NCBI RefSeq assembly: GCF_001583435.1
Contig: NZ_CP013251.1
Span: 62,001-126,000 of the forward strand
Direction: 5' to 3'
Origin: Endozoicomonas montiporae CL-33
GTDB lineage: Bacteria; Pseudomonadota; Gammaproteobacteria; Pseudomonadales; Endozoicomonadaceae
Length of the DNA stretch: 64,000 nucleotides
Shown here: piece by piece, positions 19,651 to 27,188 of the stretch
Layout: each line of letters opens with the position of its first letter
How positions within the stretch are numbered: the stretch's first letter is position 1
Translations under genes and position numbers: made by a program
The notes under the pieces: generated by a model
The model's input: only the letters and a program-made list of their open reading frames with translations
What the model was told of the DNA's origin: nothing
Databases searched by the model: none

Positions 19651-22425
19651 ATGACTATGTCAGAACAAGTTTCAGAACATGTGCCAGAAGCCGCCTCCAG
19701 GCAAGAGACAGCCCCGCTGATTCTTGTTGATGGCTCTTCCTATCTTTACCGTGCTTTCCATGCCTCGGAGCGCGCTAACCTGCGAACCTCTGATGGTCAG
19801 CCTACCGGCGCGATCCGGGTCATGACCAACATGCTGCGCAAGCTGAGCAATGAGTACTCTGGCAGTACGGTCGTTGTCATATTTGATGCCAAAGGGAAAA
19901 CCTTCCGGCATGACATGTACTCCGAGTACAAGGCTACCCGCAAGCCCATGCCGGATGACCTGCGCTCTCAGGTTCAGCCAATTCACGATATTGTTCGTGC
20001 GCTGGGCATGCCACTGCTGATGATTGAAGGTGTGGAAGCGGATGATGTCATCGGCACTCTGGCCCGCGAAGCGACGGAAAAACAAGTGGATACCATCATT
20101 TCTACGGGCGATAAGGACATTGCCCAGCTGGTATCCGAGCACGTTACTCTAATCGATACCATGAAGAACGAAGCCACTGACCTCTCTGGAGTCGTGGATA
20201 AGTTTGGTATCCCTGCCCATCTGATTGTGGATTATCTGGCTCTGATGGGCGATTCCAGTGATAACATTCCCGGCATGCCGGGGGTTGGGCAGAAGACTGC
20301 TCTGGCTCTTCTGCAGGGCATTGGCAGTATTGATGATATTGCCGAACGTCTGGATGAAGTTCCGGCACTGGGTTTTCGAGGCAGTAAAAACTTTGCCAGC
20401 AAGTTTGCTGAACACAAAGATGTGGTGCTGTTATCCCGTGAACTGGCCACCATTAAAACCGATGTAGAACTGCCAGTGGGTGTAGACGGCCTGAAGGCTG
20501 AAGCCATCGATAAAGAAGCGTTGCTCGAACTGTTCCGGACGTTTGAATTTCGCTCCATGATCGCAGAGCTGGACAGTGGTGCAGTAGAAGCTTCTGAAGA
20601 TCAGAAGCCAAAGGTTGAAGCACACTACGACACTGTTCTGACTGAAGATGAGTTTAACCATTGGCTGGAACAGCTAAATAATGCTGAGCTGTTTGCTTTT
20701 GATACTGAAACCACCAGCCTCGACTACATGGTGGCAGAGCTGGTGGGGGTTTCTTTTGCCATTGAGCCGGGCAAAGCGGCTTATGTACCCGTGGCTCATG
20801 ATTATATGGGGGCACCGGAGCAACTGAATCGTGACTGGGTGCTGGAGCAGTTGAGGCCTCTGCTGGAAAACGATGAAAAGAAAAAAGTAGGCCAAAACCT
20901 CAAGTACGATCAGAGTGTTTTGGCACGCTATGGTATCCATCTTCAGGGCATTGCTTTTGATACCATGCTTGAGTCGTATGTATTCAACTCCACTGCTACC
21001 CGCCACGATATGGACAGCTTGGCTGATAAATACCTTGGTCATCGATGCACGTCTTTTGAAGACATCGCAGGCAAAGGTAAAAAACAACTGACGTTTAATC
21101 AGATTGAACTGGAAAAAGCTTCACCCTATGCCGCTGAAGATGCCGACATTACCCTGCGTTTGCATCAGGCTATCTATCCCGGGCTGGAAGCTGAAGCCTC
21201 TCTGGGCAAAGTGTTCCACGACATTGAAATGCCGCTGGTGGATATTATTTCCCGGATGGAACGCAACGGTGCCAAAGTCGATGGCTCATTGTTGGCAAAG
21301 CAGAGTCTGGAGATTGGTGAACGGCTGAAAGAGCTGGAACGACAGACGCATGAAATGGCGGGTGAGCCGTTTAATCTCGCTTCTCCAAAGCAACTTCAGG
21401 CATTGCTGTTTGAAAAGCTGGGTTTGCCGGTCATTAAGAAAACCCCTAAAGGACAACCATCGACGGCTGAAGAAGTGTTGCAGGAACTGGCACTGGACTA
21501 CCCGTTGCCCAAGCTGCTGATTGAGCATCGTGGTTTGAGCAAGCTGAAGTCTACCTACACTGATAAACTGCCACAGATGATTAATCCTGAAACTGGGCGA
21601 ATTCATACGTCTTATCATCAGGCTGTAACAGCAACAGGACGACTGTCGTCTTCTGACCCGAACCTGCAGAACATTCCAATTCGAACTGAAGAAGGTCGCA
21701 GAGTGCGACAAGCATTTGTTGCGCCGCAGGGCTACAAACTGATCGCAGCAGACTACTCCCAGATTGAATTGCGTATTATGGCGCACCTTTCTGGTGACAG
21801 AGGGTTACTGGAAGCCTTTGCTAACGGTCTGGATATTCACAAAGCGACAGCTTCGGAAGTCTTTGGTGTGACTCTGGACGATGTGACTTCCGAGCAGCGT
21901 CGCAGTGCCAAGGCGATTAACTTTGGCCTGATCTATGGTATGTCGTCGTTTGGTTTATCGAAGCAGCTGAACATTTCCAGAAAGTCGGCGCAGGAATACA
22001 TCGACCTTTATTTTGATCGCTACCCGGGTGTGCTGCGCTACATGGAAACCACCAAAGAGAGTGCCCGTGATAAAGGCTATGTTGAAACGCTGTTTGGCCG
22101 TCGTCTTTATTTACCGGAAATTAACGCACGAAACGGTATGCGTCGTCAGGGAGCAGAGCGTACGGCCATCAATGCCCCCATGCAGGGAACGGCTGCGGAT
22201 ATTATCAAACGCGCCATGGTTGATGTGGATCACTGGCTGACAGACAGCAAACTGGATGCTCGCATGATTATGCAGGTGCACGATGAATTGGTTCTGGAAG
22301 TGGCTGAGAGTGATCTTGAGTCAGTTCGTAAAGGCGTTGAGGCAAAAATGTCTCAGGCCGCTACTCTGGATGTGCCATTACTGGTAGAAGCAGGTATTGG
22401 TGATAACTGGGATGAAGCACACTGA
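19651..22425 (+). CDS. polA: DNA polymerase I
   Basis: Repair and Okazaki fragment polymerase of 924 residues. Three domains are present: the N-terminal 5'-3' exonuclease (LILVDGSSYLYRAFHA, TGDKDIAQL, MGDSSDNIPG), the 3'-5' proofreading domain with an intact DxE (FAFDTETTSLDY near residue 350), and the C-terminal polymerase (DYSQIELRIMAHLSGD, the RRSAKAINFGLIYGMS O-helix, and VHDELVLEV). Length is typical. It is followed by the sRNA array rather than directly by a coding gene. Confidence 0.97.
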   Translation: MTMSEQVSEHVPEAASRQETAPLILVDGSSYLYRAFHASERANLRTSDGQPTGAIRVMTNMLRKLSNEYSGSTVVVIFDAKGKTFRHDMYSEYKATRKPMPDDLRSQVQPIHDIVRALGMPLLMIEGVEADDVIGTLAREATEKQVDTIISTGDKDIAQLVSEHVTLIDTMKNEATDLSGVVDKFGIPAHLIVDYLALMGDSSDNIPGMPGVGQKTALALLQGIGSIDDIAERLDEVPALGFRGSKNFASKFAEHKDVVLLSRELATIKTDVELPVGVDGLKAEAIDKEALLELFRTFEFRSMIAELDSGAVEASEDQKPKVEAHYDTVLTEDEFNHWLEQLNNAELFAFDTETTSLDYMVAELVGVSFAIEPGKAAYVPVAHDYMGAPEQLNRDWVLEQLRPLLENDEKKKVGQNLKYDQSVLARYGIHLQGIAFDTMLESYVFNSTATRHDMDSLADKYLGHRCTSFEDIAGKGKKQLTFNQIELEKASPYAAEDADITLRLHQAIYPGLEAEASLGKVFHDIEMPLVDIISRMERNGAKVDGSLLAKQSLEIGERLKELERQTHEMAGEPFNLASPKQLQALLFEKLGLPVIKKTPKGQPSTAEEVLQELALDYPLPKLLIEHRGLSKLKSTYTDKLPQMINPETGRIHTSYHQAVTATGRLSSSDPNLQNIPIRTEEGRRVRQAFVAPQGYKLIAADYSQIELRIMAHLSGDRGLLEAFANGLDIHKATASEVFGVTLDDVTSEQRRSAKAINFGLIYGMSSFGLSKQLNISRKSAQEYIDLYFDRYPGVLRYMETTKESARDKGYVETLFGRRLYLPEINARNGMRRQGAERTAINAPMQGTAADIIKRAMVDVDHWLTDSKLDARMIMQVHDELVLEVAESDLESVRKGVEAKMSQAATLDVPLLVEAGIGDNWDEAH

Positions 22426-22546
22426 TACAGGGAAGACCATGCGTAACTGAGAGTTTTGTAAGGTTTTTGTAAGGTCGAAAACAGTCAGGAACTAATCTCT
22501 GAACTGCTTGTCTTAGATAGTAACAGTCACGTTAAGTGGCTTGTTT

Positions 22547-22646
22547 ACTCCTTGTGTGTTTAGTGTTGGCAAGAAGCAGTGGTCAGTACCCCTGCAGACT
22601 ACTGCATCAACCAGCTTCCTTCCCCCAAAGGCAGCTGGTTTTTTTT
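22547..22646 (+). ncRNA. Putative C-rich-loop small RNA, unit 1
   Basis: The unit starts with a 25-nt block (ACTCCTTGTGTGTTTAGTGT and GGCA-containing end) that is identical in units 2 and 3. Next comes a 9-bp stem (GCAGTGGTC at 22576-22584 with GACTACTGC at 22597-22605) whose loop carries ACCCCT. The unit ends in an intrinsic terminator (22610-22646) with ACCAGCT/AGCTGGT arms, a CCTTCCCCCAAAGG tip and eight Ts. No coding frame is supported. It sits between polA and engB, the Spot 42/ErsA position. Whether the shared block is the RNA 5' end or a promoter cannot be settled by eye. Confidence 0.65.
22610..22646 (+). terminator. Intrinsic terminator of sRNA unit 1
   Basis: ACCAGCT pairs with AGCTGGT, with an inner CCTT/AAGG pairing, a C-rich loop (CCCCC) and a run of eight T residues. 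Confidence 0.85.
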
Positions 22647-22760
22647 CGCCTGTAAAAAAGAGACCTGCCGTGCAAAAAAAGTTTTTCAAAAAAATAAAAA
22701 AAATTTTGAACTTTTTCCAGAAGCCGTTGTCTTAGATTATGCAGGAGGGAAACTTTCTGC

Positions 22761-22863
22761 ACTCCTTGTGTGTTTAGTGTTGGCATATACGGGCAGTCTG
22801 ACGTTCCCCAACAACAGACTGTCATCACCAGCTACCAGTCCCCTCTGGTAGCTGGTTTTTTTT
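22761..22863 (+). ncRNA. Putative C-rich-loop small RNA, unit 2
   Basis: This unit has the same 25-nt block as units 1 and 3, then a 9-bp stem (GGCAGTCTG at 22792-22800 with CAGACTGTC at 22815-22823) with a loop containing TTCCCC. A terminator follows with a 12-bp stem (ACCAGCTACCAG/CTGGTAGCTGGT), a TCCCCT loop and eight Ts. The architecture parallels unit 1 although the stem sequences differ, which suggests selection on structure. Units 1 and 2 also share TTGTCTTAGAT 32-38 nt before the block. Confidence 0.65.
22827..22863 (+). terminator. Intrinsic terminator of sRNA unit 2
   Basis: Perfect 12-bp stem with a short C-rich loop (TCCCCT region) and a T8 tract. It is one of the strongest terminators in the window. 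Confidence 0.9.
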
Positions 22864-22926
22864 ATCTCTATAGACGACAAATGTTTAATTTCGGAGTAAA
22901 GTTTTTCTTCTTTTGTCGATTCCTTA

Positions 22927-22958
22927 TACCAATTCATGTTTAGAAGACGGAATTGGTA
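22927..22958. repeat. Family B remnant (fused ends, 32 bp)
   Basis: The two termini of the family B repeat (TACCAATTC and GACGGAATTGGTA) lie together without the internal 125 bp. It lies between sRNA units 2 and 3. Confidence 0.6.
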
Positions 22959-23075
22959 TTACCCAATGATCCGCTTTTTTTGATCTTTCGCAGGGCTTTT
23001 TGTGGTGCATGATTTCTTTCATCGTTGTATGCGATGAAAAAAATCACCATTTAAGAGTTTTTATGGAGCGATCCA

Positions 23076-23121
23076 TGGAACTATTTGTGGAACTATTTGT
23101 GGAACTATTTGTGGAACTATT
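23076..23121. repeat. 12-bp tandem repeat, 3.8 units
   Basis: TGGAACTATTTG is repeated three times and followed by a partial fourth copy (TGGAACTATT). It is non-coding and lies between sRNA units 2 and 3. Confidence 0.9.
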
Positions 23122-23175
23122 CAAAAAAACGCAGGTCTGATGTTGTGTAAGGTGGCTGAATGCCTTCTTACACCA

Positions 23176-23261
23176 ACTCCTTGTGTGTTTAGTGTTGGCA
23201 AATACTCCGTTTTCGGAGCTTTGAACTCCAGTTCCCCTCCCCCGGGAACTGGAGTTTTTTT
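23176..23261 (+). ncRNA. Putative C-rich-loop small RNA, unit 3
   Basis: The third copy of the identical 25-nt block is followed by a small CTCCG-TTTT-CGGAG stem, whose loop is T-rich unlike units 1 and 2. A long terminator then has AACTCCAGTTCCC/GGGAACTGGAGTT arms and a C/T-rich loop (CTCCCCC). The T tract ends 1 nt before the convergent engB stop codon, so the hairpin probably terminates both transcripts. Confidence 0.6.
23224..23261 (+). terminator. Terminator of sRNA unit 3, shared with engB
   Basis: A 13-bp perfect stem with a C-rich loop and T7. On the minus strand the same stem, preceded by the engB stop, could act in reverse. Confidence 0.85.
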
Positions 23262-23262
23262 C

Positions 23263-23952
23263 TTATTCTTCTTCGTGATTTTCTACAGAACCTTCTTCAT
23301 CAAATGGCTCTTCGTCAGGCAGTTCGTTGTCTTCAACCCCAAGCCAGGTGTCAAGGTGATGAGCCAGCTCGGTGACACCGGTTTTTTTCAAAGATGAGAA
23401 TAGCTGAACAGTGACCTGATCATGCTCTTTTACTTCATTTTTGAGCTTGTTAAGCGCCTGTTTGCCTACGCCGGACTTTAGCTTATCAGCTTTGGTCAGA
23501 AGAATGTGAAGGGGCATATGAGACTCAATGCTCCACTGCAGTATCATTCGGTCAAATTCTTTCATGGGATGCCGAATATCGACGAGCAGTACTACACCTG
23601 CCAGAGATTCCCGGTTGGTCAGGTAATCATCCAGATGCTTTTGCCATTTTATTTTCATGGCTTCAGGGACTTTGGCATAGCCATAGCCCGGCAGGTCAAC
23701 AAGATAACGGTTTTCTTCGATCTCAAAAAAGTTGATCAGCTGCGTCCGGCCAGGGGTTTTACTGGTTCTGGCCAGTTTGGATGATCCTGTCAGCGCATTA
23801 AGAGCGCTGGATTTTCCTGCATTGGAGCGACCGGCAAAAGCCACTTCAAGGGCATTGTCCGGTGGGCACTGCTTCAGGGTCGGAGCACTTGTCACAAAGT
23901 GTGCTTTACGGTAATTCAGGTGACGGGGAGTGGTATTATTTGATTCAGTCAT
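23263..23952 (-). CDS. engB: Ribosome biogenesis GTPase YihA/EngB
   Basis: Essential GTPase acting in assembly of the large ribosomal subunit. In its 229 residues the G1 motif is GRSNAGKSS, the G3 [10 protein letters not shown], and the G4 LTKADK. The C-terminal 25 residues are an acidic tail ([16 protein letters not shown]). It is convergent with the sRNA array and divergent from cytochrome c4, as in Pseudomonas. Confidence 0.95.
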
Positions 23953-26764: not shown

Positions 26765-26815
26765 AAAAAAAGGTCTGGCATCGAGGGGGAAGGAGGAGGG
26801 GTGATGCCAGACCTT
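26765..26815 (-). terminator. Orphan intrinsic terminator with C/U-rich loop (minus strand)
   Basis: The stem is 13 bp perfect (26770-26782 with 26803-26815). Read on the minus strand, the 20-nt loop ACCCCTCCTCCTTCCCCCTC is followed by seven Ts. The plus-strand side has no T tract, so the direction is minus. No minus-strand gene precedes it, which implies a small non-coding transcript. Confidence 0.75.
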
Positions 26816-26855
26816 AACAAATTCCAACCAGAAGTCAGGGAGTAATTGATGGGAA
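26765..26855 (-). ncRNA. Putative small RNA ending at the C/U-rich terminator
   Basis: A TATACT box on the minus strand (complement of 26855-26860) lies about 90 nt before the end of the T tract, so a transcript of roughly 80-90 nt is plausible. No good -35 was found. The loop resembles those of the polA-engB units but lacks the 25-nt block. Confidence 0.4.
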
Positions 26856-27188
26856 GTATATTACCCATCTAAAAATTGATTTGTATCAGTATATTCGTGC
26901 TGTTCGGTAGGTAATCCAACTGATCAGGCCGGTCAGGCCTGTCAATCAAGAAAGTGCTAATTCAGTGCTAATAATCGTATATTGTTGACTGAAATCAACA
27001 ATATATGGGGCTTTTGGGCTATTTTGACCACATCTAACCACAAGAGTCGCACAGTTAGCCGATTTTAGAGCTTCTGCATTAGTTACTTATAAGATGTTTG
27101 TTTTGCGAAATTCTGCTTTTTCTACACACAAACATTGGAACCGCTCAGCCAATGATAGAATAGAGCTCAAGTTTCTGGATGTGACAGT

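Follow-up and report, generated by a model that had tools for sequence, protein, structure and literature searches.

Three tandem units of small-RNA type lie between polA and engB in the window, that is, the whole 64-kb stretch of DNA analysed here (NZ_CP013251.1). The upstream neighbour, polA (19651-22425, forward strand), encodes DNA polymerase I and provides a tblastn anchor in relatives. The downstream neighbour, a convergent engB/yihA GTPase gene (23263-23952, reverse strand), is also seen in relatives, and both genes are ORFs named from their sequence and locus. Each unit contains the same 25-nt block, ACTCCTTGTGTGTTTAGTGTTGGCA, whose three perfect copies (22547-22571, 22761-22785 and 23176-23200) lie exactly where the initial annotation had placed them. 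With up to three mismatches allowed, the 20-nt core of this block occurs at exactly three sites in the 64 kb, compared with a mean of 0.05 in dinucleotide shuffles, none of which (0/100) reaches three. The block begins with CUCCUU, which can be seen from the sequence to be the complement of Shine-Dalgarno sequences.

In predicted folds, the units, all on the forward strand, are composed of a 5' hairpin (SL1), the single-stranded U-rich block, a middle hairpin (SL2, reduced in unit 3) and a terminator hairpin (SL3). Unit 1 is preceded by a sigmaE/AlgU-type promoter motif, GAACTA-N15-GTCTTA (22489-22515), and its predicted sRNA of about 126 nt (22521-22646; match to the covariance model R2 at 22522-22646) comprises SL1 (22522-22545), the block, SL2 with a CCCC loop (22576-22605) and an intrinsic terminator with a C5 run and a T8 tail (22610-22646). 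Unit 2 has the motif GAACTT-N15-GTCTTA (22708-22734) and a predicted sRNA of about 124 nt (22740-22863, also matched by R2), with SL1 at 22740-22761, SL2 with a CCCC loop at 22791-22823 and a terminator with a C4 run and a T8 tail at 22827-22863. Unit 3, with the motif GAACTA-N15-GTCTGA (23114-23140) and a predicted sRNA of about 116 nt (23146-23261, R2 match), has SL1 at 23146-23172, a shortened middle hairpin of 5 bp with a UUUU loop and without a C run at 23205-23218, and a terminator with C runs and a T7 tail at 23220-23261, to which its C runs are confined. Promoters are assigned by motif, SL1 by folding, the middle hairpins by folding and sequence, and the blocks by identity and by alignment with the Rfam model RF01719, in which they are the counterpart of the U-rich domain II of ErsA. 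The 5' ends of all three RNAs are assumed, being set about 6 nt past the -10 box.

The terminators with T7-T8 tails that had been reported to end at 22646, 22863 and 23261 are seen in folds and sequence, as is the second stem-loop with a CCCC loop in units 1 and 2. A simple terminator scan lists those of units 2 and 3; the terminator of unit 1, visible in the fold, is absent from that list, its stem having a 1x1 mismatch. The transcripts of 80-105 nt proposed initially are too short, because the promoter and the 5' hairpin that all three units carry upstream of the block had been overlooked, and RNAs of about 116-126 nt are predicted instead. The statement that the region holds no ORF needs correcting: mechanical ORFs of 64-90 aa run across the units, none of them tracking the unit boundaries.

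Simple repeats also occur at this locus. Past the polA stop and ahead of the unit 1 promoter, the 11-bp sequence TTTTGTAAGGT is directly repeated without mismatch (22454-22475). The 12-bp sequence TGGAACTATTTG is present in 3.8 copies at 23076-23121, the last of which provides unit 3 with its -35 box, and as a single copy in G005, G007 and G009 (80 bases read upstream). Since the spacing is right for the last copy alone, the extra copies look like a recent slippage expansion.

The promoter motif GAACTW-N15-GTCTNA is found ahead of each of the three units; over 2.06 Mb, both strands counted, it has only five sites, these three included. When the spacer is left free between 12 and 20, the box pair is found in 38 of 42 units, the window's three included, and the spacer is always 15 or 16. 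The motif agrees with the sigma22/sigmaE type of promoter expected for ErsA, while the stricter GGAACTT form does not occur at the units. Across the whole genome, the canonical pattern GGAACTT-N15..18-GTCTNA yields three sites (L033-L035, for which the sites themselves were read), compared with two for a reversed control, and none of the three belongs to the units or to rpoE. The genome encodes an rpoE/AlgU-type sigma factor (TIGR02939, 315.9 bits) and Hfq (100.9 bits). Sigma factors of the RpoE/AlgU type autoregulate, and GGAACTT-N15-GTCTAT can be read by eye upstream of the rpoE-type gene; GTCTAT misfits GTCTNA, and the typed pattern is silent there. To judge from these motifs, the three units would be sigmaE-dependent.

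In Pseudomonas, ErsA is made under cell envelope stress, and in Pseudomonas aeruginosa, where its gene lies downstream of polA, it couples the control of porins and biofilm to envelope stress. The initial annotation had hinted at ErsA from the position of the units, and the resemblance goes beyond position, as the units are also matched by the covariance model of ErsA (RF01719, Pseudomon-1). At Rfam's own cut-offs no match is obtained in the 64-kb window. Nevertheless, units 1, 2 and 3 reach 42.8, 27.7 and 44.8 bits, with model positions 1-116 aligned, so that none of the three attains the gathering score of 50 bits. The corresponding E-values are 1.1e-6, 0.0047 and 3.5e-7 in 1.2 kb, and 5.7e-5, 0.25 and 1.9e-5 window-wide, where unit 2 by itself is thus not significant. 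When the 64 kb are scanned with 4227 families, the RF01719 matches up to E 0.5 are the three units only, and two further matches belong to other families (E 0.12 and 0.35). The next-best RF01719 match in the 5.43-Mb genome scores 14.4 bits (E 8). By these scores, the window units are ErsA homologues without being formal Rfam members.

Among relatives, RF01719 matches at E<=0.1 are found in 22 of 57 genomes, including all ten of the genus (the window's own counted), and in none of 14 control genomes. The Rfam cut-off is passed in only three of the 57, two of the same genus (52.9 and 50.6 bits) and G054 of family f20 (121.3 bits). Since 30 of the 32 family matches in this search fall below the cut-off, standard annotation would miss them. 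Among individual loci, L117 and L125 pass RF01719 with 121.3 and 138.7 bits, and none of ten others tested (six of family f1, to which the window's genome belongs, and four others) reaches gathering. Family f20 is taken as Pseudomonas-like because both of the loci tested from it pass RF01719, rather than by name.

The initial annotation had suggested a covariance-model search of related genomes, and such models do recover units in relatives. Model R2, made from 12 units of six other genomes of the genus with the window and outgroups excluded, scores the window units at 72.4, 77.5 and 67.7 bits, and also finds L117 (49.1 bits, E 1.2e-8) and L125 (30.6 bits, E 1.3e-4) among 28 sources, these E-values being rough. 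Matches of model R1 are partly by construction, since this model includes the units of the window and a single outgroup unit. Within the window, R2 also gives a weak match at 26766-26873 on the reverse strand (20.2 bits, E 0.025), probably by chance.

The predicted structure is borne out by covariation. In A2, an alignment of 12 units, the three-helix structure comprises 34 pairs, 89.0% of whose cells are paired (95.1, 83.8 and 89.7% for the individual helices). Twelve pairs are changed on both sides, compared with 6.8 in shuffled alignments (1/500 shuffles as high), and the covariation score is 0.292, compared with 0.167 (0/500 as high). Little weight is given to the number of further pair types (28 vs. 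25.2), which 50/500 shuffles reach. When partners are slid by 1-3 columns, 34-47% of cells pair, a control biased in favour of the structure, which was derived from one member's fold. In A1, an alignment of 32 rows, RNAalifold recovers the terminator stem alone, as loop length differs among unit classes. Single-sequence folds of several units, including the window's, leave the block weakly paired, and some relatives fold otherwise. Together with the occurrence of the units in related genomes, the covariation supports the initial proposal of tandem small RNAs under structural selection.

ErsA is described as a strictly sigma22-dependent RNA of 132 nt (PMC7565897), with three stem-loops (SL1-SL3) and a U-rich, unstructured domain II of 34 nt between SL1 and SL2, nucleotides 31-54 being predicted to pair with anr (PMC8575079). 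The window units resemble it in their sigmaE-type boxes, in the order of SL1, U-rich single strand, SL2 and SL3, in their C runs, in the block core GUGUUNAGUGUUGGC and in size. They share with ErsA a position directly 3' of polA, which is also where the Rfam-grade loci L117 and L125 lie. They differ from ErsA in being three tandem, diverged copies that score below gathering and in the reduced middle stem of unit 3; their promoter spacer is 15, whereas that of L117 and L125 is 16. The units are, on the basis of this layout and of the model scores, divergent and tandemly multiplied homologues of a known sRNA, and look functional.

How often the units are multiplied was counted by a rule that requires a GAACTW/GTC box pair (spacer 14-17) and a block with at most six errors, and that ends each unit at the following T run, the stem being left unchecked. 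In 48 stretches (47 plus the window), this rule gives 65 units, distributed over 40 stretches; the eight unit-free stretches are G123 and seven f1 loci on the engB side. At least one unit is present in 30 of the 37 f1 genomes, and two to four at one locus in 18 of the 37: four in G008, three in G000 (the window's genome), G001, G005, G007 and G009, and two in twelve genomes. The same 30 genomes have a full-length R1 match of at least 40 bits; of the seven f1 genomes without a unit, two have weak R1 matches only and the other five have none at E<=0.1. The stretch read includes polA in 27 of the 30 genomes with units (all but G001, G014 and G031) and engB in 16. In G010 and G015, the second unit is omitted from the count, as is the third of G004, for which no -35 box was seen; so are the second units of G036 and G081, of family f2. 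The latter two score 26.6 and 17.8 bits with R2 and have visible GAACTT boxes. The loci concerned, L118 and L124, thus hold a tandem ErsA-like pair, although polA gave no match within the stretch read there, and tandem pairs may occur outside f1 as well.

A search of the order (293 genomes, f1 included) returns 18 genomes outside f1 that match over the full length at 40 bits or above, with one such match each, and 12 f20 genomes with one match each at this level. In a class sample of 369 genomes, matches at E<=1e-5 are obtained only in G000 and G054. These wide searches score about ten candidates per genome, so second copies can go unseen. A pattern scan of named genomes gives 16 stretches, nine from Endozoicomonas and relatives and seven from unrelated bacteria, the latter taken as chance.

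What is new at this locus is the copy number, with arrays of two to four promoter-bearing ErsA-type units at one locus. By title, among the matches listed, the PMC literature (which leaves subscription papers mostly uncovered) describes no such arrangement, and the one paper in it that mentions Endozoicomonas together with ErsA is about a Pseudomonas genome. The initial annotation had regarded a multi-copy version with C-rich loops as undescribed. The multi-copy arrangement is indeed new, but the C-rich loops are not, since C runs are already present in the RF01719 consensus and in the polA-adjacent RNA sX13 described in PMC3771888. Multiplied sRNAs of other families and under other regulators are described elsewhere, the Neisseria siblings NgncR_162/163 having more than one related copy per genome. 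The RNAs PrrF1/2 of Pseudomonas are arranged in tandem. They too, named in PMC8395346, are related copies within one genome, again in another family with another regulator.

The sequence shows homology, promoter motifs, layout, covariation and arrays in relatives; transcription, sigmaE dependence, Hfq dependence and targets are what we infer from it. On these grounds, it is very probable that the units encode three separately transcribed, paralogous, trans-acting sRNAs, homologues of Pseudomonas ErsA that each have a sigmaE-type promoter and a terminator of their own. Two points make this reading slightly less firm: unit 2 lacks significance when taken by itself, and none of the units fits the canonical promoter pattern. 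In the proposed mechanism, envelope stress would free RpoE, leading to transcription of all three units together. All three RNAs would expose the identical block and pair with mRNAs through it, and the complementarity of its CUCCUU start to Shine-Dalgarno sequences makes the blocking of ribosome binding the simplest action. Hfq would take part for at least some targets, as the RNAs carry U-tails and hfq is present. For ErsA itself, the repression of oprD is described as involving Hfq (PMC7264166), and its effect on amrZ is reported to be Hfq-independent (PMC5819304). Copy-specific C-rich loops could make further contacts, with G-rich parts of mRNAs, as is reported for sX13 (PMC3771888), and the net effect would be chiefly the repression of envelope genes.

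Whether the copies differ in function can be approached through their divergence. A tree built from 33 units over 135 columns, in which 10 of 30 inner branches have good support, groups the units of G000, G005, G007 and G009 into three positional clades, with support values of 95/81 for u1, 97/98 for u2 and 99/96 for u3, which indicates that the copies have been kept apart in these four species. The units on the engB side in G001 and G008 attach weakly to u3 (91/60), and orthology beyond the four close species is uncertain. The copies could simply be dosage copies, all three doing the same job and the extra ones raising the RNA level, as may be suggested by the identical block, by the common promoter type and by the near-identical, recent pair formed by u1 and u2 of G008. 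We regard this as rather unlikely, given that differences outside the block persist in the position clades of the four species and that unit 3 is without the C run in SL2. A tentative proposal, for which we claim somewhat limited confidence, is that the array may act as a combinatorial envelope-stress module with a common pairing domain and sigma factor, and with SL2 and SL3 loops that differ by position across at least four species. One stress signal would then release two to four variants with overlapping but distinct target sets. The family of Endozoicomonas is host-associated, and if the combinatorial reading were true, ErsA expansion would be a trait of this bacterial family. A lineage with two to four diverged copies, each with a sigmaE-type promoter, also constitutes a natural experiment on whether the block or the C-rich loops govern the target choice of ErsA.

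It is improbable that the loops act without the block. In this alternative, the units would work like sX13 of the Xanthomonadaceae, independently of Hfq, with C-rich loops acting on G-rich motifs near start codons, and the block would not be the pairing site. By its description in PMC3771888, sX13 is likewise polA-adjacent, is 115 nt long with three stems and C-rich loops that act in this manner, and has Hfq as a dispensable partner. C runs are kept in the units as well, those of at least three in the middle part of 54/65 units and those of at least four in the last 40 nt of 52/65, as measured in crude slices. However, most invariant columns of the 32-row alignment fall in the block, unit 3 is without the SL2 C run, and GGGG near starts is no commoner in outer-membrane-type genes (2/23) than in others (165/1680).

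In enterics, spf, the gene of Spot 42, is under CRP control. Were the units RNAs of the Spot 42 type, they would be regulators of carbon metabolism rather than envelope-stress RNAs, which we judge very improbable. Spot 42 shares the polA neighbourhood (PMC3771888), and ErsA is described as having been first identified as its functional orthologue (PMC8395346). Membership of the Spot 42 family was nevertheless rejected, as its covariance model gives no match at E 10 in 22300-23500 or at E 0.5 in the window; the promoter type also differs, a simple scan of 22400-23300 finding no sigma70-type promoter where sigmaE-type boxes are present. That the units are a non-functional tandem repeat or the remnants of duplicated terminators, as the tandem arrangement and the simple 12-bp repeat at the same locus might suggest, is scarcely credible in view of the promoter motifs, the covariation and the arrays in related genomes.

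For the ErsA-homologue reading, candidate targets were sought at 1703 ORF starts (genome positions 62001-2126000, 38% of the genome). Over these starts, block duplex energies show no excess (top-20 mean of -24.2, compared with -23.9 +/- 0.68 for 60 shuffled blocks), and a longest-match scan of the block gives no enrichment. Outer-membrane-type genes (n=23) are not enriched (p = 0.65; 21/100 shuffles at or beyond the native difference), and exported-type genes account for seven of the top 50 of the 1703 starts, compared with 7.7 expected. A Porin_8 gene ranks 245th of the 1703. Matches to tsx (PF03502) are found in 19 of the 37 family genomes and to yfaZ (PF07437) in two of 37. For tsx leaders (26 match rows, 22 taken and 21 measured), pairing energies with the block of about -24.5 are obtained only in G000 and G005, those in G006, G007 and G009 being -11.1, -17.9 and -18.7. 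In the window's species, two outer-membrane genes, of tsx type (G000:C1:320040-320774) and yfaZ type (900486-901043), have leaders that pair strongly with the block, ranking 6th and 15th of the 1703 starts.
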